36,053 bases of DNA from Paenarthrobacter sp. CM16 (GTDB taxonomy: Bacteria > Actinomycetota > Actinomycetes > Actinomycetales > Micrococcaceae). The translations under genes were made by a program, and so were the position numbers. Under the pieces are notes generated by a model that saw only the letters and a program-made list of their open reading frames with translations, ran no database searches and had not been told where the DNA came from. Of the stretch, positions 5,406 to 21,318 are shown piece by piece; positions within the stretch are counted from its first letter, which is position 1, and the number at the start of each line of letters is the position of its first letter. Location of the stretch: the NCBI RefSeq assembly GCF_013179505.1, contig NZ_JABMCX010000005.1, positions 1-36,053 on the forward strand, written 5' to 3'.

Positions 5406-6215
5406 GTGAATCGTTCTGTTCCCTACAACGCGGACACTGTGTTGGTTGGCGTCAGCACCAAGATGTACATGGGCTACGCGCACAGCCTGGAGTGGTTGGA
5501 GCAGTTGGTGGCAGAAGTGGACGCCCGTCCGGCCCTTGCGGCCGGGCGGGTGGTCCCGTTTGTCATTCCTTCCTTCCCGGTATTGCCGGCGGCGGCGCGG
5601 ATGGTGGAGGGCACCCCGTTGGTGCTGGGCGGGCAGAACTGCGGTTGGTCTGACGGGCCGTGGACGGGCGAAGTATCACCGTCCATGCTCGCTGAATTGG
5701 GAGTGGGACTCGTAGAGATCGGTCACGCTGAGCGGCGGCGCCACTTCGCCGAGGATGAGGCAATGATTGCGCTCAAGGTCAGTGCCGCCGTCGACGTCGG
5801 TCTGACGCCGCTGCTGTGCGTGGGGGAGAGCGAAATCCTGGAACCGGAAGCCGCAGCGGAAACGGTATTCGGACAGGTGAAAGCAGCTGTCTCGGGCGAC
5901 TGGTCCGTTGCATCGCAGCTGGTCATTGCCTACGAGCCCGTGTGGGCCATCGGTGCCCCGGAACCTGCCTCGGCCTCCTACGTTTCGCTGGTGGTGCGCG
6001 CGCTCCGGGCCTCCCTGGACCGCCACGGGCTCTCCGGGATGCGCATCATTTACGGCGGTTCAGCGAAGCCGGGCTTGTTGCCGCAACTGGACGGGGTTTC
6101 AGGACTCTTCCTTGGCCGCTTTGCTCATGACGCAGCCAACTTCGGCAGGGTCTTGGACGAAGCCTTGAGTTTTTGTACAGCAGATGCCCCTAAGACGCCC
6201 TCTAAAGGGCATTAG
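5406..6215 (+). CDS. lerI: Triosephosphate-isomerase-like enzyme, probable L-erythrulose-1-phosphate isomerase
   Basis: This 269-residue TIM-barrel protein starts with GTG four bases after the MFS stop. Catalytic features are Lys19 in VSTKMYMG, His107 in IGHAERR, Glu177 in AYEPVWAIG and the phosphate-binding YGGSAKPG. In canonical TpiA the catalytic Asn sits two residues before the Lys and the His motif reads GHSERR. Here the Asn position is Ser and the motif is GHAERR. Such divergent TIMs (LerI in mycobacteria, EryH in Brucella) isomerise L-erythrulose-1-P to D-erythrulose-4-P, the step between the kinase and the RpiB-like enzyme of this operon. The last codons lie inside a long palindrome and overlap the convergent helicase gene. 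A spare TpiA is the alternative. Confidence 0.88.
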   Translation: MNRSVPYNADTVLVGVSTKMYMGYAHSLEWLEQLVAEVDARPALAAGRVVPFVIPSFPVLPAAARMVEGTPLVLGGQNCGWSDGPWTGEVSPSMLAELGVGLVEIGHAERRRHFAEDEAMIALKVSAAVDVGLTPLLCVGESEILEPEAAAETVFGQVKAAVSGDWSVASQLVIAYEPVWAIGAPEPASASYVSLVVRALRASLDRHGLSGMRIIYGGSAKPGLLPQLDGVSGLFLGRFAHDAANFGRVLDEALSFCTADAPKTPSKGH

Positions 6216-6229
6216 GTGTACAAAAACTC
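6167..6229. terminator. Long palindrome at the overlapping ends of two convergent genes, probable bidirectional terminator
   Basis: Perfect 13-bp arms GAGTTTTTGTACA (6167-6179) and TGTACAAAAACTC (6217-6229) enclose a second, imperfect stem (ATGCCCCT at 6184-6191, AGGGCAT at 6206-6212). An alternative inner hairpin GCCCT/AGGGC is possible. Because each arm has a T-run and its complement, the structure works as a terminator in both directions. It includes the last codons of both convergent genes. Confidence 0.8.
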
Positions 6230-13743: not shown

Positions 13744-16131
13744 ATGGTGACTTCAAATCTCCAACACCAGTCCGTCGACTCCGCCATCCATGCCCAGATC
13801 GCCGCCGAACTCGGCGTCAAGGCCTGGCAAGTCAAAGCCGCGGTGGAACTGCTCGACGCCGGATCCACCGTCCCCTTCATCGCCCGCTACCGCAAGGAAG
13901 TCACCGGGACGCTCGATGACACCCAGCTGCGCGACCTCGAGGAACGGCTCAGATACCTGCGTGAGCTCGAAGAACGGCGCAAGGCTGTCCTGGAGGCAAT
14001 TGCCGCCCAAGGCAAGCTGACCCCGGAACTGGAAGCCGCCGTCGTCGGGGCCGATACCAAGGCGCGCCTGGAGGACATCTACCTCCCCTTCAAATCCAAG
14101 CGCCGTACCAAAGCCCAGATCGCCCGGGAAGCCGGGCTGGAGCCGTTGGCCGATGTCCTGCTGGCCAACCCGCACCTGGACCCCGCCACCGAGGCCGCCA
14201 AGTACCTGAACGCCGAGCACTCCATCGACGACGCCGCAGCGGCGCTCGCAGGAGCCCGCGCCATCCTGGTGGAGCGCGTCGGGCAGGACGCCGACCTCGC
14301 CGAGGACCTGCGCGAACGGCTCTGGAAGCAGGGCCGCATGGTGTCGCGGGTCAAGAAGGGCATGGAGGCTGAGGGCCAGAAGTTCAAGGACTACTTCGAA
14401 TTCACGCAGGTGCCCGCCGGAATGCCGTCTCACCGAGTGCTGGCGCTGTTGCGTGGTGAAAAGGACGGTGTCCTTGAGCTGGACCTCGCCGAATCAGACC
14501 CCGCCGACGACGACGCCCTGGCCGCCGCCCGCGGTAAGTACGAAAACGCTGTGGCCAAGTGCCTCGGCGTCTCCCAACAAGGGCGGCCCGCTGATACGTG
14601 GCTGATGCAGACCGCGCAGCTCGCGTGGCGGGGCCGTATCCTGGACCGGCTGACCACCGATCTTCGCGGACGCATGTTTGCCGACGCCGAAGATGAAGCG
14701 GTTCGGGTCTTTGCCGCCAACCTGCGCGATGTCCTGCTGGCCGCACCTGCCGGCAACCGGGCCACGCTGGGCCTGGACCCCGGACTCCGGACCGGCGTGA
14801 AAGTGGCTGTGGTGGACGGCACCGGCAAAGTGGTCACCACGGACACCATCTACCCGCACGCGCCGGCTAAAAAGTGGGACGAAGCCCTGGCCACCCTGGG
14901 CCGGCTCGCCAAGCAGTACAACGTGGAACTGGTGGCGATCGGCAACGGAACAGCCTCACGCGAAACGGACAAGCTGGCCACCGAGCTCATCAAATCCCTC
15001 GAAGCTGCCGGTTCCAAGGGAATCCAGAAGCTGGTGGTGTCCGAAGCCGGAGCGTCCGTGTACTCGGCCTCTGCCCTGGCGGCTTCCGAACTCCCGGGGA
15101 TGGATGTCTCCTTGCGAGGAGCAGTGTCCATTGCCCGGCGTCTCCAGGACCCCTTGGCCGAACTGGTCAAGATCGAGCCAAAGTCCATCGGCGTGGGTCA
15201 GTACCAGCACGACGTCACTGCAGCGAAGCTGGACCGTTCTCTGGATGCCGTGGTGGAGGACTGCGTGAACGCCGTGGGCGTGGACGTCAACACAGCGTCT
15301 CCGGCGTTGCTAAGCCGGGTTGCCGGTGTGGGGCCTTTGCTGAGCGAAAACATTGTGGCGTATCGGAACGAGAATGGGCCGTTCGCCAAGCGCAGTGACC
15401 TCAAGAAAGTGCCCAGGCTGGGCGCCAAAGCGTTCGAACAGTGCGCCGGCTTCCTCCGCATTACCGGGGGAGCGGAGCCGTTGGACGCTTCCAGCGTGCA
15501 CCCGGAGGCATACTCCGTGGCCCGCAAGATCCTGGTAGCGGCCGGCGGCGGTCCCGCTACTTCCCTGGATCCGCAGGCCTTTGTGGACGGCACCTTCGGC
15601 CTGCCCACCGTCAAGGACATCATGTCCGAACTGGAAAAGCCGGGGCGCGATCCCCGTCCTGCTTTCAAGGCGGCATCGTTCTCTGAGGGCATCGAGAAGA
15701 TCTCCGACCTCAAGCCCGGCATGATCCTTGAGGGGACAGTCACCAACGTGGCAGCGTTCGGGGCGTTCGTGGACGTGGGAGTGCATCAGGACGGCCTGGT
15801 CCACGTGTCCGCCCTGTCCAACAAGTTCGTTTCCGATCCCCGCGAAATCGTGAAATCCGGCCAAGTGGTCCGGGTCAAGGTCCTGGAGGCCGACCCCGAA
15901 CGGAAGCGGATCTCCCTGACTTTGAGGCTCGACGACGAACCCGGCACTGCAGGCGTACGCGGCCCGGGCGGGCGTGCTTCGGGCGAGGGCGCTTCGGGTG
16001 GCAGGACTTCGGGCGGGCAACGTGGGGGCCAGCCCGGCCAACGCGGTGGTCAGCCCGGGCAACGTTGGGGGCCAGCCCGGCCAGCGCGGTGGTCAGCCCG
16101 GGCAAGGGGCGCCGCGGCAGGGACAGAGTGA
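13744..16131 (+). CDS. tex: Tex-family RNA-binding transcription accessory protein, C-terminal tail frameshifted
   Basis: This is a cytoplasmic nucleic-acid-binding protein that acts with RNA polymerase in bacteria where it has been studied. From the N-terminus it has the helical Tex domain (PFIARYRKE), a YqgF/RNase-H-like domain beginning LGLDPGLRTGVKVAVVD, two helix-hairpin-helix segments (VAGVGPLLSENIVAYR, VPRLGAKAFEQCAGF) and an S1 domain (ILEGTVTNVAAFGAFVDVG). An RGG/QPGQ-rich disordered tail ends the protein. ATG 13744 with GTGAGG upstream is preferred over GTG 13729. Within the tail the second 42-bp repeat has one extra T (16065/16066). The frame therefore ends at 16131 with a WGPARPARW-like tail, while the family-typical ending AEALRRAGLGK lies in another frame and stops at 16234. 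The core domains are intact. Confidence 0.93.
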   Translation: MVTSNLQHQSVDSAIHAQIAAELGVKAWQVKAAVELLDAGSTVPFIARYRKEVTGTLDDTQLRDLEERLRYLRELEERRKAVLEAIAAQGKLTPELEAAVVGADTKARLEDIYLPFKSKRRTKAQIAREAGLEPLADVLLANPHLDPATEAAKYLNAEHSIDDAAAALAGARAILVERVGQDADLAEDLRERLWKQGRMVSRVKKGMEAEGQKFKDYFEFTQVPAGMPSHRVLALLRGEKDGVLELDLAESDPADDDALAAARGKYENAVAKCLGVSQQGRPADTWLMQTAQLAWRGRILDRLTTDLRGRMFADAEDEAVRVFAANLRDVLLAAPAGNRATLGLDPGLRTGVKVAVVDGTGKVVTTDTIYPHAPAKKWDEALATLGRLAKQYNVELVAIGNGTASRETDKLATELIKSLEAAGSKGIQKLVVSEAGASVYSASALAASELPGMDVSLRGAVSIARRLQDPLAELVKIEPKSIGVGQYQHDVTAAKLDRSLDAVVEDCVNAVGVDVNTASPALLSRVAGVGPLLSENIVAYRNENGPFAKRSDLKKVPRLGAKAFEQCAGFLRITGGAEPLDASSVHPEAYSVARKILVAAGGGPATSLDPQAFVDGTFGLPTVKDIMSELEKPGRDPRPAFKAASFSEGIEKISDLKPGMILEGTVTNVAAFGAFVDVGVHQDGLVHVSALSNKFVSDPREIVKSGQVVRVKVLEADPERKRISLTLRLDDEPGTAGVRGPGGRASGEGASGGRTSGGQRGGQPGQRGGQPGQRWGPARPARWSARARGAAAGTE
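16021..16105 (+). repeat. 42-bp tandem repeat in the tex tail, second copy with a 1-base insertion
   Basis: Unit 1 (16021-16062, 42 bp) begins CGTGGGGGCCAGCC; unit 2 (16063-16105, 43 bp) begins CGTTGGGGGCCAGCC. The units are otherwise almost identical and encode RGGQPGQ repeats. The single extra T moves the frame and removes the normal C-terminus. Confidence 0.9.
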
Positions 16132-16272
16132 TCGCGGGCAGGGCGGCTCGCGGCAAGGAAGGCCCCAGCAGTCCCCGGAACCCGCGAACACTGCCATGGC
16201 AGAAGCTCTCCGCCGGGCCGGACTCGGGAAGTAGCGCCGGACTCGGGAAATTACTGCGGCCGCGCAGGCCAC

Positions 16273-16336
16273 GAATCCCCGCCTTGTTCGCCTGAAAGGC
16301 CGCACTACGGTGAGTCGGGCGAACCAGGGCGGGTTC
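16273..16336. repeat. Intergenic 64-bp palindromic repeat, copy A
   Basis: This is an imperfect inverted repeat whose left arm starts GAATCCCCGCCTTGTTCGCC and right arm ends GGGCGAACCAGGGCGGGTTC. The centre reads AGGCCGCACTACGGTGAG. It sits between the convergent tex and alpha/beta-hydrolase genes and could terminate both. It aligns along its whole length with the copy at 17787. Confidence 0.8.
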
Positions 16337-16352
16337 GTCCGGTGCACGTGGG

Positions 16353-17393
16353 CTACAAACCCGCGGTCCTGGCTTCCCACAACACTGCATCCGTAGGCTG
16401 CAAAGCCATGGGAAGCCAGCGCCCGATCCGTGCGAAGGCCTCCCTTCGGATGGGTTCGGGTGACAGGAAGATGTCGTGGAAGGCGTTCGGAAGCCGGCTG
16501 ATACTGACGGTGTCCGCCAAGGACAGTGAGCGGTGGGCCACGGCGTCCACGTTGAGGGCGACGTCGGCAGTGAGTGCATCAGCGGACCACTTGGGCTGCA
16601 GGTAGCTCTTGTCCGAGAGCAGCACGAGCACTGGGACGTCGATCCCCAAGCCTGCCGCGACGGTGGCTTGACCGCGGAAGACGGCGTCGAGGAAGGCCGG
16701 GGTGATGGGGAAGCCCCGGTCCGGCCGCCACTCGAGGTTGTAGTCCCATTCGCCGTCGAGGGTGGCAGACACAGCGCGGGTATAGATGCCCGGATCTACT
16801 GGCGGCAGTGGCGCCAAGGGGTGGAGACGGGCGTGCAGCCCCACCAGGGGAGCGATCGCGCGCCGGCCGAGCTCGGTCGCCTGGAATTCCAGCCAGGGAC
16901 TGTTGAGGATCAAGGCCGACGCCGTTCCAGGATGGCGGGCAGCCCACAGGCTGAGCGTGAGTCCGCCGGTGGAGTGGCCCAGCAGAATGAGCGGCCGATC
17001 CTCGCCGGGAACACCGGAGCGGCCCATGGCTGAGAGGGCAGCCTCGATGTCGGCGTCGTAATCGCTAAGGCTGGTGACGAAGCCCGGGACGAGCCCCGGG
17101 CTCAGGCTGCGGCCGTAGTTGTGCAGGTCCAGGGCGTAGAAGCGTGCACCGGCCCGGTGCCAGAATTCGGCCACGTGGCGTTGGAAGAAGTAGTCGGACC
17201 AGCCGTGGACGTAGAGGACATCGGCGTCGAAGCCAGGCCCGTCCGCAGCGTCCAGCCACGGGGCGTCGTCGCCCAACTCCTTAGTGCCAGCGCCGAGGTA
17301 CCTGACCAAGGTGGCGACAGCACCGTCGTCGAGCTCCAGCGTTTGTTGCTCAAAGCCGTCACCAAGGATGTCCGGGATCCACGGCCGGGTCAT
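16353..17393 (-). CDS. Alpha/beta hydrolase (lysophospholipase/esterase-like)
   Basis: This 346-residue protein has an alpha/beta-hydrolase fold. The nucleophile elbow GHSTGG (Ser) is near the middle, an oxyanion-region segment LYVHGWSDYFFQ lies before it, and the probable catalytic His is in LPNAFHDIF near the C-terminus. There is no signal peptide, so it should be cytoplasmic. I chose ATG 17393: it overlaps the DUF1622 gene's TGA by 4 bases (ATGA), with AAGGAA upstream, so the two are translationally coupled. An in-frame start at 17414 would lie deeper in the neighbour. Similarity is to the monoacylglycerol-lipase/lysophospholipase group. A lipid or ester substrate is likely but not proved. 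Confidence 0.9.
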   Translation of the reverse strand: MTRPWIPDILGDGFEQQTLELDDGAVATLVRYLGAGTKELGDDAPWLDAADGPGFDADVLYVHGWSDYFFQRHVAEFWHRAGARFYALDLHNYGRSLSPGLVPGFVTSLSDYDADIEAALSAMGRSGVPGEDRPLILLGHSTGGLTLSLWAARHPGTASALILNSPWLEFQATELGRRAIAPLVGLHARLHPLAPLPPVDPGIYTRAVSATLDGEWDYNLEWRPDRGFPITPAFLDAVFRGQATVAAGLGIDVPVLVLLSDKSYLQPKWSADALTADVALNVDAVAHRSLSLADTVSISRLPNAFHDIFLSPEPIRREAFARIGRWLPMALQPTDAVLWEARTAGL

Positions 17394-17752
17394 GCTTCCT
17401 TTTCCTTCTGCCAAGGCCAGCGGCCGGTGATTTCCAGCTCGAGGGAGAAGCTCAGGAAGGTCCGGATGAGCACAATGATGGCCAGGACTCCGACGCTCTC
17501 GAATGTGGGAGTGACAGCGACGGTGCGGATGATGTCGGCGGCCACCAAGAGCTCCAGGCCCAGCAGTATGGACCTGCCCAGCAGTTGCCGGTAGGAGCGG
17601 TACGGAGAGAAGGGAGCCAAGCCACGGGCCCGTTTGGGCTGGTACCCGCGAAGGGCCATTGGAACCGAAACCAAGGCTCCGACTACCATGACTGCCACTC
17701 CGGCAAAGTCCATGTACCGGCCGACTTCTTCAATGATGTGCTGGAAATCCAT
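17390..17752 (-). CDS. DUF1622 family membrane protein
   Basis: This 120-residue protein has three hydrophobic segments: one near residues 16-34, one around GRSILLGLELLVAADIIRTV and one around VGVLAIIVLIRTFLSFSLE. The last two match the DUF1622 signature as I know it. It is an inner-membrane protein of unknown function. It is the first gene of a two-gene unit with the alpha/beta hydrolase, overlapping by 4 bases, so a membrane-lipid-linked role for the pair is possible. The upstream 100 bases hold a palindromic repeat that belongs to the gene before it. Confidence 0.9.
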   Translation of the reverse strand: MDFQHIIEEVGRYMDFAGVAVMVVGALVSVPMALRGYQPKRARGLAPFSPYRSYRQLLGRSILLGLELLVAADIIRTVAVTPTFESVGVLAIIVLIRTFLSFSLELEITGRWPWQKEKEA

Positions 17753-17786
17753 GAAACTCCCTGCCTAGGTGCGGGCTACCGCCGTC

Positions 17787-17850
17787 GAATCCTGGCCTTG
17801 TTCCCCTGTCAGGCCGCATTACGGTGTGACAGGCGAACAAGGCCGGGTTC
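17787..17850. repeat. Intergenic 64-bp palindromic repeat, copy B
   Basis: The left arm GAATCCTGGCCTTGTTCCCC pairs almost perfectly with the right arm AGGCGAACAAGGCCGGGTTC. The centre is AGGCCGCATTACGGTGTG. It lies 4 bases beyond the stop of the minus-strand MSMEG_6728-type gene, where it can act as that gene's terminator, and upstream of the DUF1622 gene. Confidence 0.85.
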
Positions 17851-17854
17851 CAAG

Positions 17855-18766
17855 CTACAGCGCAGGCGCCGGGACCGGGAAGAACACCCGGGGATCCTGC
17901 AGGAGCGCGGGGTAGTCGAAGTCCGAGCGCTTGATCACGTTGGTGACCTCGAAGTTGCGGGCAAAGCGGCCATCCACCGTGATGGGCCGGCCTTGGATCA
18001 GGCCGACAGCGAACGTTTGTCCGCCGTCGAACGGAATGGCCAGCTCTGTCTTGCCAGGCAAGGTGTTGAAGGCCTGTTCCTGTGCCTGGCGCTTCCGTGT
18101 GGGCTTCTTCTCGCGGGGCGCCACCGGACGCTTTTTGGGACCGCCCACTTGGCGGCGGGACTTCTCCTCGGCGTACACAAACTGGTATTCGTCGGGGTCC
18201 GCGGGGGCTGCCTTGGCCTTGCCGTGCGGCGGCATGCTGACGGTGGTGAGCTGCTCCGGGCGGAGGTCTTCGACGTTGGAGCGCAGGATCAGGAGGCGAT
18301 CCTCTTCAGGGTCCACCGGGTGGAACTCGTGCTTGGGCTCAGGCCACACATATTCCAGTTTTTCCTCGGTGCCGGGAAAAATCTGTGCGTAGTGCTTGGG
18401 ATCCTTGCTGAGCAGCTTGGAGCGGTGGCTGAGGTGCAGGTCCTCGTGACCGAGCCACGGCGGCATGACGATCCGGGAGGCATAGTCCGGGTGGGCTGCC
18501 TGCGGGGCGAACTCCGCGATGTTCGCGCGCGTGTTGTCCGGGTGGCCGCGTTCCATCCATTCGTCGGCCATGGCCAGGCCGTACATGGTGAGTGCCGGGA
18601 CGTGGCCCATCCACATGCGCACGGCGGGGTGAGACTGCCAACCGTACTCCGGGATCACCAATGCGCGGAGGACCTGGAGTGCTTCGACGCGCTGCTTGCC
18701 GAGCCTTGAAGTGTCGAGGGCTTTGGCACTCTCACGGAAATCGGCGAAGGGGAGGAAAGTCTGCAT
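17855..18766 (-). CDS. MSMEG_6728-family protein (pyrimidine-dimer glycosylase-like N-terminus)
   Basis: This 303-residue protein starts at ATG 18766 with AAAGG upstream and begins MQTFLPFADFRESAKALD. The N-terminal 130 residues (LGKQRVEALQVLRAL, WQSHPAVRMWMGH) resemble the T4 endonuclease V-like Pyr_excise superfamily and the actinobacterial MSMEG_6728 family. The second half is charged, with a basic stretch (RRQVGGPKKRPVAPREKKP) and a C-terminal globular segment near residues 255-300. A DNA-repair role is an inference from fold resemblance only. It ends just before a palindromic repeat and is divergent from the deaminase gene, with 83 bases shared for both promoters. Confidence 0.85.
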   Translation of the reverse strand: MQTFLPFADFRESAKALDTSRLGKQRVEALQVLRALVIPEYGWQSHPAVRMWMGHVPALTMYGLAMADEWMERGHPDNTRANIAEFAPQAAHPDYASRIVMPPWLGHEDLHLSHRSKLLSKDPKHYAQIFPGTEEKLEYVWPEPKHEFHPVDPEEDRLLILRSNVEDLRPEQLTTVSMPPHGKAKAAPADPDEYQFVYAEEKSRRQVGGPKKRPVAPREKKPTRKRQAQEQAFNTLPGKTELAIPFDGGQTFAVGLIQGRPITVDGRFARNFEVTNVIKRSDFDYPALLQDPRVFFPVPAPAL

Positions 18767-18849
18767 CCTTTCAGTTTGAGGGTGCCGGGAGTGAGAACCA
18801 AGTTGAGTGCTCCGGGACACGTGCCATTGTTGGGGCCTAGAGTTGCAGG

Positions 18850-19881
18850 GTGGAAACTTTTGACGAGAAAACTGTCACCACGGCGCCCCCGGTTGCCGAA
18901 CTGCACCTGCACATCGAAGGGACTCTCGAGCCAGAGCTGATCTTTGCCCTGGCTGAACGTAACGGCATCGAGCTGCCGTACCAAGACATCGCCGAACTCC
19001 GGGAAAAGTATGAATTCACGGACCTGCAATCCTTCCTGGACCTGTATTACGCCAACATGGCTGTGCTGCAGACGGAGCAGGATTTCACGGACATGACGCG
19101 TGCCTACCTGAAGCGGGCTGCCGCCGGGGGAGTGCGCCACGCGGAAATCATGATGGACCCCCAGGCCCACGTCTCCCGGGGTGTTGCGCTGGAGACCTGT
19201 GTCAACGGCGTGGCCAACGCCCTGGCCACTTCAGAGGAAGACTTCGGCGTCTCTACCCTCCTCATCGCAGCGTTCCTGCGGGACATGTCCGAGGACTCAG
19301 CCTTGGAGGTATTGGACCAACTTATTGCCATGCACGCACCGATTGCGGGCATCGGGCTGGACTCCGCAGAGGTGGGCAATCCGCCGTCGAAATTTGAGCG
19401 CCTGTACCAGCGCGCCGGCGAGGCCGGGCTGCGCAGGATCGCCCATGCGGGCGAAGAAGGCCCCGCCAGTTACATCACCGAGGCGTTGGACGTGCTGCAC
19501 GTCGAGCGGATCGATCACGGTATCCGCTGCATGGAGGACACCGACGTGGTGCAGCGGCTGGTTGCCGAGCAAGTCCCGCTGACTGTGTGCCCCCTGTCCA
19601 ACGTGAGGCTCCGCGCCGTGGACAAACTGGCCGACCACCCGCTGCCTGAAATGCTCGCCATCGGCTTGAACGTCTGCGTGAACTCGGACGATCCCGCCTA
19701 CTTCGGCGGTTATGTGGACGACAACTATAAGCAGTTGGTCAAGGTCCTGGAATTCTCCGTGCCGGAGCAGGCCACGTTGGCTGCCAACTCCATCCGTTCC
19801 TCGTTCGCCAGCGATGCCCGCAAAGCGGTGCTGCTGGATGAGGTCACCGAGTGGGTAAAGTCCTCCGTGACGCCCGCCTGA
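18850..19881 (+). CDS. Adenine deaminase-type member of the adenosine deaminase family
   Basis: This 343-residue cytoplasmic zinc amidohydrolase starts with GTG. Metal ligands are the HLHIEG pair (His19, His21), the AHAGEEG His with its catalytic Glu, and NSDDPAYFGGY with the C-terminal Asp. The segments GLDSAEVGNPPSKF, RIDHGIRCMEDT and VCPLSNVRLRAV are characteristic, to my knowledge, of the Aah1/bacterial adenine deaminase branch rather than true adenosine deaminase. It should convert adenine to hypoxanthine. A nucleoside hydrolase that releases free bases is encoded 6 kb away, consistent with base-level salvage. The adenosine-versus-adenine preference is inferred from motifs. Confidence 0.9.
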   Translation: METFDEKTVTTAPPVAELHLHIEGTLEPELIFALAERNGIELPYQDIAELREKYEFTDLQSFLDLYYANMAVLQTEQDFTDMTRAYLKRAAAGGVRHAEIMMDPQAHVSRGVALETCVNGVANALATSEEDFGVSTLLIAAFLRDMSEDSALEVLDQLIAMHAPIAGIGLDSAEVGNPPSKFERLYQRAGEAGLRRIAHAGEEGPASYITEALDVLHVERIDHGIRCMEDTDVVQRLVAEQVPLTVCPLSNVRLRAVDKLADHPLPEMLAIGLNVCVNSDDPAYFGGYVDDNYKQLVKVLEFSVPEQATLAANSIRSSFASDARKAVLLDEVTEWVKSSVTPA

Positions 19882-20028
19882 AAGCCGCCAGCTGAGACCT
19901 GTACATCACTTGCCGTGTCCCGAATGTCACACTCGGTCACGACACACGGTGTTTACCTTCTGCAGTCGCGGGAATTAACAATTCATTGGCAAACTGCAAA
20001 GAGAGTATTCACCCGTTGAAGGAGAAGC
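19882..20028 (+). promoter_or_regulatory. Leader of the H1-like/X25 gene
   Basis: The 147-base spacer holds CCGTGTC and GACACACGG facing each other, a small GAATT-AAC-AATTC palindrome at 19972-19984, and TTTACC about 16 bases before ATTAAC as a weak promoter candidate. AAGGAG precedes the ATG at 20029. None of these is decisive. Confidence 0.35.
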
Positions 20029-20937
20029 ATGGGCGCGAACACCGCCGAGAACACCAACCTTCGTCTGAAGGCCGTACTGGACATCCTCGCTGAAAGCGTG
20101 TGGTCCGAGACAACCCTCAACGCCGGCGAAGTCCTGGCCGAAGCGATCGTCCGCGTACCTTTCAATGATCACGAGGCCGAACTGCTCAGTGGCGGCATCC
20201 CGCGTGGGCACAAGACCCTGACGTCGGCATCGGCCAAGCTGGTCAAGGCCGGCTGGTTGGTCAAGGGCCGTTCGGGCTGGACCATTCCGGAGGACGGCTT
20301 GCGTGCCACCGTGGCCTTCCCGGATGCGGCAGCTTTCGGAGCAGCGCTCGACGCCGGAACGCCGGTTCCAGCCGATGTGGCCGTTCCGACGGCCCCGCCG
20401 GTGAAGCCCGCGGCGAAGAAGGCAGCTACAAAGCGGGCTGCAGCCAAAAAGGCAACCGATCCCGCGGTCGCCGCAACCGACGTCGCGGAACCAAAGGTTG
20501 CAGCAGCAAAGGTGTCCGCGCCCAGGGCCAGGGCCGCTACAGCCAAGGCTGCGCCCGCGGAGAAGGCTGCGGCACCGAAGAAAACCACGCGTAAGGCGCC
20601 GGCCAAGGCAGCGGCGAGTCCCGCCGTCGAAACCTTGCCGCAGCCGGACGCGGTGGCGGTGGCCGGGGACTTCAACAAGATCATGGGTGCTCCCGAAGAT
20701 TGGGCGCCGCAGTACGACGAAGCGCAGATGGAGTTCAACCCGCTGGTTCAGGTGTGGACCATCACTGCTGAACTTCCTGCAGGTTTTTACACGTACAAGA
20801 TCGCGCTGAACCGTTCGTGGGATGAGAACTACGGTGCGTTCGGTGCCCGTGATGGCGCCAACCATGAGTTGAACCACGACGGCGGCCCCGTCACCATCAC
20901 GTACAGCCACGCTACGCGGGACATCGTAGTCAGCTAA
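20029..20937 (+). CDS. Chimeric protein: helical/wing N-domain, histone-H1-like Ala/Lys linker, C-terminal X25 domain
   Basis: This 302-residue protein has no signal peptide. Residues 1-100 form a mostly helical domain with a wing-like end (LVKAGWLVKGRSGWTIPEDG). Residues 125-200 are a low-complexity Ala/Lys/Pro tract with AAKKAATKRAAAKKA-type repeats, as in histone H1-like bacterial nucleoid proteins. Residues 205-302 (AVAGDFN, MGAPEDWAPQYDEAQM, WTITAELPAGFYTYKIALN, HDGGPVTITY) match the X25 beta-sandwich found in pullulanases and amylases. The layout suggests a DNA- or RNA-binding protein with a carbohydrate-binding-like module, which is unusual. A palindromic repeat follows its stop. Function is unknown; this is a domain-level description. 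Confidence 0.85.
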   Translation: MGANTAENTNLRLKAVLDILAESVWSETTLNAGEVLAEAIVRVPFNDHEAELLSGGIPRGHKTLTSASAKLVKAGWLVKGRSGWTIPEDGLRATVAFPDAAAFGAALDAGTPVPADVAVPTAPPVKPAAKKAATKRAAAKKATDPAVAATDVAEPKVAAAKVSAPRARAATAKAAPAEKAAAPKKTTRKAPAKAAASPAVETLPQPDAVAVAGDFNKIMGAPEDWAPQYDEAQMEFNPLVQVWTITAELPAGFYTYKIALNRSWDENYGAFGARDGANHELNHDGGPVTITYSHATRDIVVS

Positions 20938-20952
20938 GTTCCTTTGCCGGTT

Positions 20953-21020
20953 CGAAACCTGCCCTTGTTCGCCCTGCGAGCCGTTGAACGGTGAGCGGGA
21001 CGGACAAGGGCGGGTTTTCG
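20953..21020. repeat. Intergenic palindromic repeat, copy C (divergent member)
   Basis: The left arm CGAAACCTGCCCTTGTTCGC pairs with the right arm ending GGACAAGGGCGGGTTTTCG. The centre is GAGCCGTTGAACGGTGAG, sharing GCCG and ACGGTGAG with copies A and B. It lies 15 bases after the H1-like/X25 gene's stop and 13 bases before the acylphosphatase ATG. Confidence 0.78.
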
Positions 21021-21033
21021 TTAAGGTGGTTCC

Positions 21034-21318
21034 ATGACTGACGAAGCCCAGCGCGTCACTGCCCGCATCACCGGCCTTGTCCAAGGCGTGGGTTTCCGCT
21101 ATTGGACTGCCCGGAAAGCCGACGAGCTGGGGCTGAGGGGCACGGTCCGGAACAGCCTTGACGGCTCCGTGGAGTTGGTGGCGGAGGGCAATGCCGCCGA
21201 CGTGGACCGCATAGTGAAATGGCTCCACTCCACCCGCGCGCCCGGCCGCGTGGAGAATGCTGACGTTGAGCTCTCCGAAACAACAGGGGAGTTCAGCGAC
21301 TTCCGGATTGTCGACTAG
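21034..21318 (+). CDS. acyP: Acylphosphatase
   Basis: This small cytoplasmic enzyme of 94 residues hydrolyses carboxyl-phosphate bonds of acylphosphates. The motif GLVQGVGFRYWTARKA holds the phosphate-binding loop and catalytic Arg. GTVRNSLDGSVELVAEG holds the catalytic Asn (VRN) and the typical strand. AAGGTGG precedes the ATG. The length and order match the ferredoxin-like acylphosphatase fold. It is the last plus-strand gene before the toxin-antitoxin pair. It is a housekeeping enzyme with no clear link to its neighbours. Confidence 0.95.
   Translation: MTDEAQRVTARITGLVQGVGFRYWTARKADELGLRGTVRNSLDGSVELVAEGNAADVDRIVKWLHSTRAPGRVENADVELSETTGEFSDFRIVD

Follow-up and report, generated by a model that had tools for sequence, protein, structure and literature searches.

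The window analyzed here, i.e., the whole stretch of 36,053 nucleotides from Paenarthrobacter sp. CM16 (contig NZ_JABMCX010000005.1), contains three long palindromes (A, B, and C), which belong to a long-hairpin family, old and of low copy number, situated behind gene ends in the Arthrobacter group. Our best reading is that the family probably functions as intrinsic terminators, with termination itself predicted from sequence features, viz., the position at gene ends, compensatory pairing, old vertical inheritance, a strand bias at the site of copy C, and a canonical U-tract behind the cysN gene. The three elements are:

16270-16339, plus strand: copy A, a hairpin element of the family (70 nt) lying between the convergent tex (plus) and hydrolase (minus) genes
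17784-17853, plus strand: copy B, a 70-nt family element adjoining the stop of a glycosylase-like gene (minus strand), in the orientation reverse to that gene
20951-21020, plus strand: copy C, a 70-nt family element between the X25-domain and acylphosphatase genes, in sense orientation

A first-pass annotation made from the letters alone had placed these palindromes correctly to within 1-2 bases, and they can be aligned over 68 columns. The conserved frame that it listed is mostly there; the exception is the right arm of copy C, which reads GACGGAC rather than GGCGAAC. It had also correctly noted that each copy lies directly behind a gene and that one is between convergent genes, this being copy A. 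Copy B lies 4 nt 3' of the stop codon of the pyrimidine-dimer glycosylase-like gene on the minus strand and is thus, in the usual family orientation, antisense to both its neighbors, while copy C is flanked by two plus-strand genes, coding for the X25-domain protein and the acylphosphatase. On the plus strand the predicted folds reach -46.6 (A), -49.2 (B), and -54.2 kcal/mol (C), values attained by 0 of 200 dinucleotide shuffles in each case; on the minus strand B and C again lie beyond all 200 shuffles and A is unexceptional (9/200 fold at least as well). The stable G+C-rich hairpin expected of an intrinsic terminator is hence present. Rfam returned no match anywhere in the window at gathering scores.

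We searched for further copies with two covariance models, as the first-pass annotation had proposed for this genome and for related Arthrobacter genomes: R1, built from A, B, and C alone, and R2, built from 35 copies. A fixed sequence pattern matched only A, B, and C in the genome, whereas the covariance models find more: at E<=1e-3, R1 recovers nine further distinct places (with R2, one of these, C18:8420, scores weakly, E 0.009) and R2 a total of 19 distinct places, 15 of which are in the R2 seed and match by construction, so that the nine non-seed R1 places are the independent figure. Since only part of the first-look candidates was scored (150 of 2679 in the genome, and 33 per genome in the genus search), these copy numbers, including the 19, are lower bounds. 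Among 150 sampled genomes of the GTDB genus, 78 contain a match at E<=3e-4, and six of them (G000, G047, G048, G079, G089, and G150) have at least 26 matching rows counted over both strands, i.e., at least about 13-17 places each. Strict filters left matches in two of the 120 genomes of a family-level sample, both belonging to the window's genus. An exact core-pair pattern, insensitive enough to miss the window's own genome, matched nine of 396 genomes of the order; three of these, in the genus, resemble the family, and the other six show no likeness to it by eye. R1 also gave weak matches to two genomes that belong to other families within the order (best E 0.002 and 0.05), and by eye these are likewise unlike the hairpin family. 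The first-pass proposal of a dispersed family is therefore borne out by further copies in both the genome and the genus. In the available portions of the open-licence papers on Arthrobacter palindromes and terminators, we found no description of it.

The copies are tied to gene 3' ends, as the first-pass annotation had anticipated. We placed 89 copies from 11 genomes in their gene context, hand-picked from 176 rows at the best strand of each: 17 of the 19 places of the window's genome (C390 and C290:1687 left out) and 72 from ten others, represented by 60 stretches from the top of the genus match list, among the matches listed. With genes called by our own codon-usage script, 35 copies are between convergent genes, 49 between tandem genes, three between divergent genes, and two inside called genes, such that 84 of the 89 are behind a gene. 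The arm starts within 30 nt of the stop codon in 73 of the 84 convergent and tandem copies (median 19 nt), as against 18% for random placement in gaps of at least 60 bp in 15 related loci, where 37% of the placements would be divergent. The 89 places collapse into 25 orthologous sites (11 tandem, 10 convergent, two divergent, and two inside genes), and 15 of 21 sites have a median distance of no more than 30 nt. A location directly behind genes is what a terminator calls for.

The consensus of the 89 copies consists of cgaaTCCCGCcCTTGTTCGc, a variable middle, CGCCGTtctACGGcG, another variable middle, and CGAACAAGGGCGGGaTTcGt. In an alignment of 35 sequences, 81.2% of the cells are paired and double changes are seen at 17 of the 27 pairs, as against 13.5 in shuffles (17 being reached by 12 of 500). 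The double-change cells number 83, compared to 41 in shuffles and 31-46 when the alignment is slid, and among 18 orthologues of site C (the site of copy C), an alignment that leaves out L080 with its expanded tip and L077 and L139 with no match, there are 26 as against 13. The compensatory changes foreseen in the first-pass annotation are accordingly seen in both alignments, and pairing is kept in the way expected of a terminator. The sequence, too, is conserved beyond the needs of pairing. The core (columns 14-21/51-58) has an identity of 0.84 between sites and 0.86 among orthologues, the between-site value being biased upward by the collection of copies with models that contain the core; the corresponding pairs of values are 0.65 and 0.85 for the outer arm, 0.40 and 0.59 for the middle stem, and 0.65 and 0.76 for the apical stem. 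At site C, which was located by synteny and is less subject to this bias, the 5' arm CCCTTGTTCG is almost invariant. The CTTGTTCG arm is therefore conserved beyond pairing, though partly with an ascertainment bias. The earlier claim that arms and loop are both conserved survives the addition of more copies for the arm core and the apical CCG/CGG stem, and not for the middle stem. In the record of P. aurescens TC1 (L080, 12089-12218), the tip of the site C hairpin is enlarged by five to six copies of the 9-base GGTTTGAAC, which indicates that the family tolerates growth at its apex.

If the DNA palindrome alone were relevant, G-U and A-C cells would be expected about equally on the transcribed strand. 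In the outer stem at site C there are 27 G-U as against four C-A cells on that strand, and for 15 of 18 sequences the better fold is that of the sense strand (the relatives not being independent). The copy behind cysN (NCBIfam CysN) is nearly identical in nine of the 11 genomes. In the window's genome this copy ends in UUUUCUUUUU, a tail behind the hairpin that recurs, unchanged or as near variants, in four relatives; the sequence after the hairpin there, TTTTCTTTTT, is that of a canonical tail, and over the nine copies at this site the mean is 8.9 U in 10 nt. Four further genomes, whose loci (L050 and L176-L178) came in via the models and whose CysN is 88-91% alike, have a sister hairpin behind cysN that keeps the core, in some with one change, and has a different center and different downstream genes; the latter difference implies that the hairpin goes with the end of the upstream gene. 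The first-pass annotation had argued that simple terminators are conserved in pairing and not in loop sequence, and that a conserved loop points instead to a dispersed element family or a protein-binding structured RNA end; this argument does not exclude a terminator, given the canonical U-tract at cysN. More generally, the stem is followed at 14 tandem sites by a mean of 3.3 U per 10 nt, compared to about 2.0 from intergenic composition.

We propose that RNA polymerase would transcribe the gene end plus about 10-20 nt, and that the RNA would then fold into a hairpin of about 27 pairs that halts transcription, with the hairpins in convergent positions probably stopping transcription on both strands. 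The shared sequence would most plausibly have arisen when one ancestral terminator was dispersed, long ago and before the divergence of the Paenarthrobacter species, with the CTTGTTCG/CGAACAAG core kept thereafter by purifying selection. Several observations weigh against this reading. Half of the tandem sites (7/14) have 2.0 or fewer U in 10 nt, no more than the background; the mean over these sites drops to about 2.9 when cysN is set aside; the tails of A, B, and C are weak in U; and a strict U-rich terminator scan called none of the three (one site elsewhere, 3.6 expected). Taken together, the 14 tandem sites show no significant strand bias, the model strand being the sense strand at 10 of 13 decided sites (p=0.09) and G-U exceeding A-C at nine of 13 (p=0.27); three tandem sites in all, copy B included, are antisense. 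Hence, a strand bias is seen at site C only, with no general bias demonstrable. Five of the 89 copies do not lie behind a gene (three divergent and two inside called genes, the latter two in the window's genome), and RNAalifold predicts only 13 of the 27 pairs from the 35-sequence alignment, with the middle stem poorly kept. Finally, a conserved core sequence is not required by a terminator, and the terminator function alone does not explain the unusually conserved sequence.

The distribution of the copies among relatives points to an old family. For this we used 15 "Paenarthrobacter" loci (L074-L087 and L139), grouped by us on adenosine deaminase identity, several of which are named Arthrobacter sp. 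Site C is occupied in 13 of the 15, with a short gap in L077 and a remnant in L139. In 13 loci the two genes that flank copy A are adjacent, and three of these loci (L076, L079, and L080) have the element at its site, as does L084 behind tex; for the site of copy B the holders among 12 loci are L076 and L079. In a four-gene tree the holders of sites A and B are scattered, a pattern that old presence with repeated loss fits better than recent gain; both sites thus look ancestral and repeatedly lost. The window's site B also retains CCGCCGTCG, the end of a second palindrome that is intact beside the element in L079. Mean identity is 76% for orthologues, 27% for shuffles, and 60% for copies from different sites, whether these are in one genome or in two, and the best within-genome pair of different sites reaches 80%. 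These levels imply that the copies have a common origin and spread before the species split, with no sign of current copying or homogenization. Gene conversion between copies, which we considered separately, amounts to next to none (a within-genome identity excess of 0.0056, standard error 0.0025, positive in 48 of 94 site pairs). The empty sites in L074, L075, L077, and L139 are too diverged for the reading of a target-site duplication, as would mark a miniature inverted-repeat transposable element (MITE). An origin from plasmids or phages was rejected: the stretch with copy B has no plasmid match at E<=0.01, and three pattern matches in viral contigs show no palindrome by eye, the search not including a phage record collection.

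REP elements are palindromic repeats linked with RAYT (Y1) transposases, and the first-pass annotation had offered an element of this kind, perhaps moved by a RAYT, as one of two readings. In its broader form this alternative holds that a selfish or domesticated palindromic element (REP- or MITE-like) was copied into gene 3' ends and has terminator activity only secondarily. The identity of 60% between copies at unrelated gene ends, against 27% for shuffles, does imply a shared origin, and the copies show local clustering (four pairs within 5 kb, 0.34 expected for 19 copies), although three of the four pairs are formed by A, B, and C, the very copies by which the finding was picked out. Other palindrome families of the genus have several near copies per 20-kb stretch, with the sites in relatives empty, collapsed, or differently filled. 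However, the RAYT version fails: the Y1 transposase domain (PF01797) has no match at E<=0.01 in the one genome searched, with six of 14 control genomes positive and other transposases outside the scope of the search; the copies number about 19 (the lower bound given above) rather than hundreds; they are only 60% identical, with next to no homogenization; and their sites are shared by descent. The lack of any different-site pair above 80% within a genome, the common descent of site C in 13 of 15 loci, and the apparently ancestral sites A and B with their repeated losses also count against a selfish element in general, which we regard as unlikely. REPs have been characterized as GTAG/CGTC-tagged repeats (PMC3733652); such a tag is absent from the foot of the 89-copy consensus, which reads cgaaTCC.

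The unexplained core brings up a second alternative, itself compatible with the terminator reading, in which a sequence-specific protein reads TTGTTCG...CGAACAA at gene ends as DNA or RNA, for example a termination, RNA-processing, or nucleoid factor. The core is nearly as well kept between sites as among orthologues, unlike the outer arm and middle stem; the synteny-located arm at site C is almost invariant; and in other genomes the sister hairpins retain the core around a different center. Against it stand the inflation of the between-site value by models that contain the core, the want of a candidate protein, and the X25 orthologues outside the Paenarthrobacter clade, of which 0 of 59 have an exact core within 110 nt of their end, so that the X25 gene end has no general need for it. 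We hence hold a protein reader to be a tentative possibility. Paired DNA-uptake signals doubling as terminators, as in Neisseria and Haemophilus, would also give a short conserved core in inverted pairs, often tail-to-tail (PMC1852404, in the part available). Real uptake signals would be abundant as single cores, whereas CTTGTTCG occurs outside the elements three times in 304,711 bases of 15 loci, compared to eight for the reversed control; accordingly, we rejected this model as extremely improbable.

The hairpin family of the window is one of several palindrome families in these genomes. We scanned the window plus 80 loci de novo for long hairpins; the scan, restricted to those with a called gene on both sides (the ones dropped being uncounted), kept 180, of which 166 are non-coding in sequence that is 87% coding and only six are divergent; in a shuffle control of ten loci there were none as against 25 in the real sequences. 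The 166 form 49 sequence families (at a threshold never reached in 3000 null comparisons), five of which occur at more than one site and together hold 90 of the 166, the sites having been grouped coarsely by single linkage. Family P (CAACTAGGTAGC...; CAACTAGGTAGCAGT..GTCGTTTTGAGCCCTCAAAACGAC..), found in Arthrobacter and Pseudarthrobacter, has 23 copies at six sites in 17 loci (L089-L142), mostly behind genes. Family Q (GCAACGCGGGGTCACTT...) has 14 copies at six sites in five loci, some of them far from gene ends or between divergent genes, and L124 and L146 each have four copies in a stretch of about 5 kb; present, absent, or collapsed at the same site in near relatives, it looks like a younger, perhaps active, REP-like family. 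Its clusters, with three to four copies per 4-7 kb, are at 10982-15427 in L124, 12698-17711 in L146, and 11979-18982 in L148.

Some of the gene ends at which the window family stands bear other palindrome families in other Arthrobacter. At one convergent site Q is present in L124 and L145, and L118, whose flanking proteins are 98% and 95% alike those of L124, has another palindrome beside an apparent collapsed remnant of Q; at another site L148 has Q and L134 a stub only. These two cases imply that different palindrome families come and go at one gene end, with the losses apparently occurring via internal deletion. At the X25 gene end outside the Paenarthrobacter clade, 37 of 59 loci have another stretch of 40-70 nt that folds at about -40 kcal/mol or better, a count made without a shuffle control and in which some stretches may extend into the next gene. 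Tentatively, the Arthrobacter group might have several clade-specific families of long palindromes that spread through the genome and become established as terminators at gene 3' ends, where they are gained and lost, such that the same end is differently filled or collapsed depending on the species; the window family would then be an old member whose core is read by some factor. That family does look like an old, settled case of palindrome turnover.

Some further palindromes touch the same sites or the same window. At site A, the Paenarthrobacter-clade loci L082 (7539) and L083 (7508-7628) contain a Q-like palindrome (GGGGTCACTTATGGCCCAT.. in L082) and not the window family. The window itself has a second family at 6169-6227, fixed at 59 bp (GTTTTTGTACAGC..GCTGTACAAAAAC), with 10 exact-pattern copies in the genome and none for the reversed control; of these copies, seven were checked, each of which overlaps a gene end or begins no more than about 10 nt from one. 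The family has its U-run in the 5' arm and its A-run in the 3' arm, the opposite of a terminator tail. Family IR2 (ACGGCGGCAGC..) has no exact copy in the window's genome.

The genes around the three copies, and a possible promoter, are as follows; an adenosine deaminase gene is also among the neighbors (Pfam):

13744-16131, plus strand: tex-like gene upstream of copy A (Pfam), apparently with a shift of frame close to its 3' end; in relatives the gene runs on to the equivalent of position 16234
16353-17393, minus strand: alpha/beta hydrolase gene, its end facing copy A (Pfam)
17390-17752, minus strand: DUF1622 gene, downstream of copy B (Pfam)
17855-18766, minus strand: pyrimidine dimer glycosylase-like gene (Pyr_excise), its end facing copy B (Pfam and our own gene calling)
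20029-20937, plus strand: X25-domain gene, with copy C at its 3' end (Pfam)
21022-21027, plus strand: TAAGGT, immediately after copy C, possibly the -10 element of a leaderless promoter for the acylphosphatase gene
21034-21318, plus strand: acylphosphatase gene, downstream of copy C (Pfam)

The tex frame stops at 16131, and the RAGLGK-stop of its relatives is present in another frame at 16232-16234; the ending (window 16100-16234) seems to reflect a frameshift in a G/Q-rich repeat or an error of the draft assembly. The TAAGGT is six bases ahead of the acylphosphatase ATG, with similar elements in related loci, and in L077, where the hairpin of site C has been lost, a promoter-like TTAGGGT is retained in the short gap ahead of the ATG. 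A leaderless acylphosphatase promoter might thus adjoin a putative terminator, although a sigma-70 scan of the region upstream of this gene called no promoter.

The function ascribed to the family is of a known kind, i.e., a terminator; what is unusual is a core conservation that pairing does not explain and the sharing of gene ends by clade-specific palindrome families. As the sequence is recognizable, some transcript 3' ends in soil bacteria of the Arthrobacter group could be annotated with the model, and the conserved core provides a handle for seeking its reader. The family may also be a natural example of terminators whose origin is the dispersal of entire palindromes and which are gained and lost at a given gene end. 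Among known systems, as described in the parts of the respective papers available to us, a Streptomyces Term-seq set of the intrinsic terminators of high-GC actinobacteria (PMC12207403) has, like the present family, hairpins that are long and stable and lie at gene ends; its tails are weak, with 3-4 U in the first 10 nt, to which the mean of 3.3 U at the tandem sites here may be compared. The difference is that a single conserved-core family is found here at about 19 places of one genome. REPs (GTAG/CGTC-tagged repeats, PMC3733652), which are linked with RAYTs, are similarly intergenic palindromes dispersed in a genome, from which the present family differs by the lack of a Y1 match, the approximately 19 copies, and the consensus foot without the tag. 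The terminators formed by the uptake signal sequences (USS) of Pasteurellaceae and DNA uptake sequences (DUS) of Neisseria (PMC1852404) likewise have stems made from short conserved inverted pairs and are enriched between convergent genes; here there is no excess of single cores, and the unit is one of 57-70 nt with a conserved apical stem. The putative REPs of RepRanger (PMC12306157) include Arthrobacter livingstonensis in a table, with 5,512 and 705 in the last two count columns, and in that part the counts are given with no Arthrobacter sequence family described. A further parallel is given by the repeated stem-loop sequence families of bacterial genomes, some of which have been proposed as terminators (PMC2267715); the high-GC Gram-positives in the part consulted, which was not searched for Arthrobacter, are Corynebacterium and Mycobacterium.

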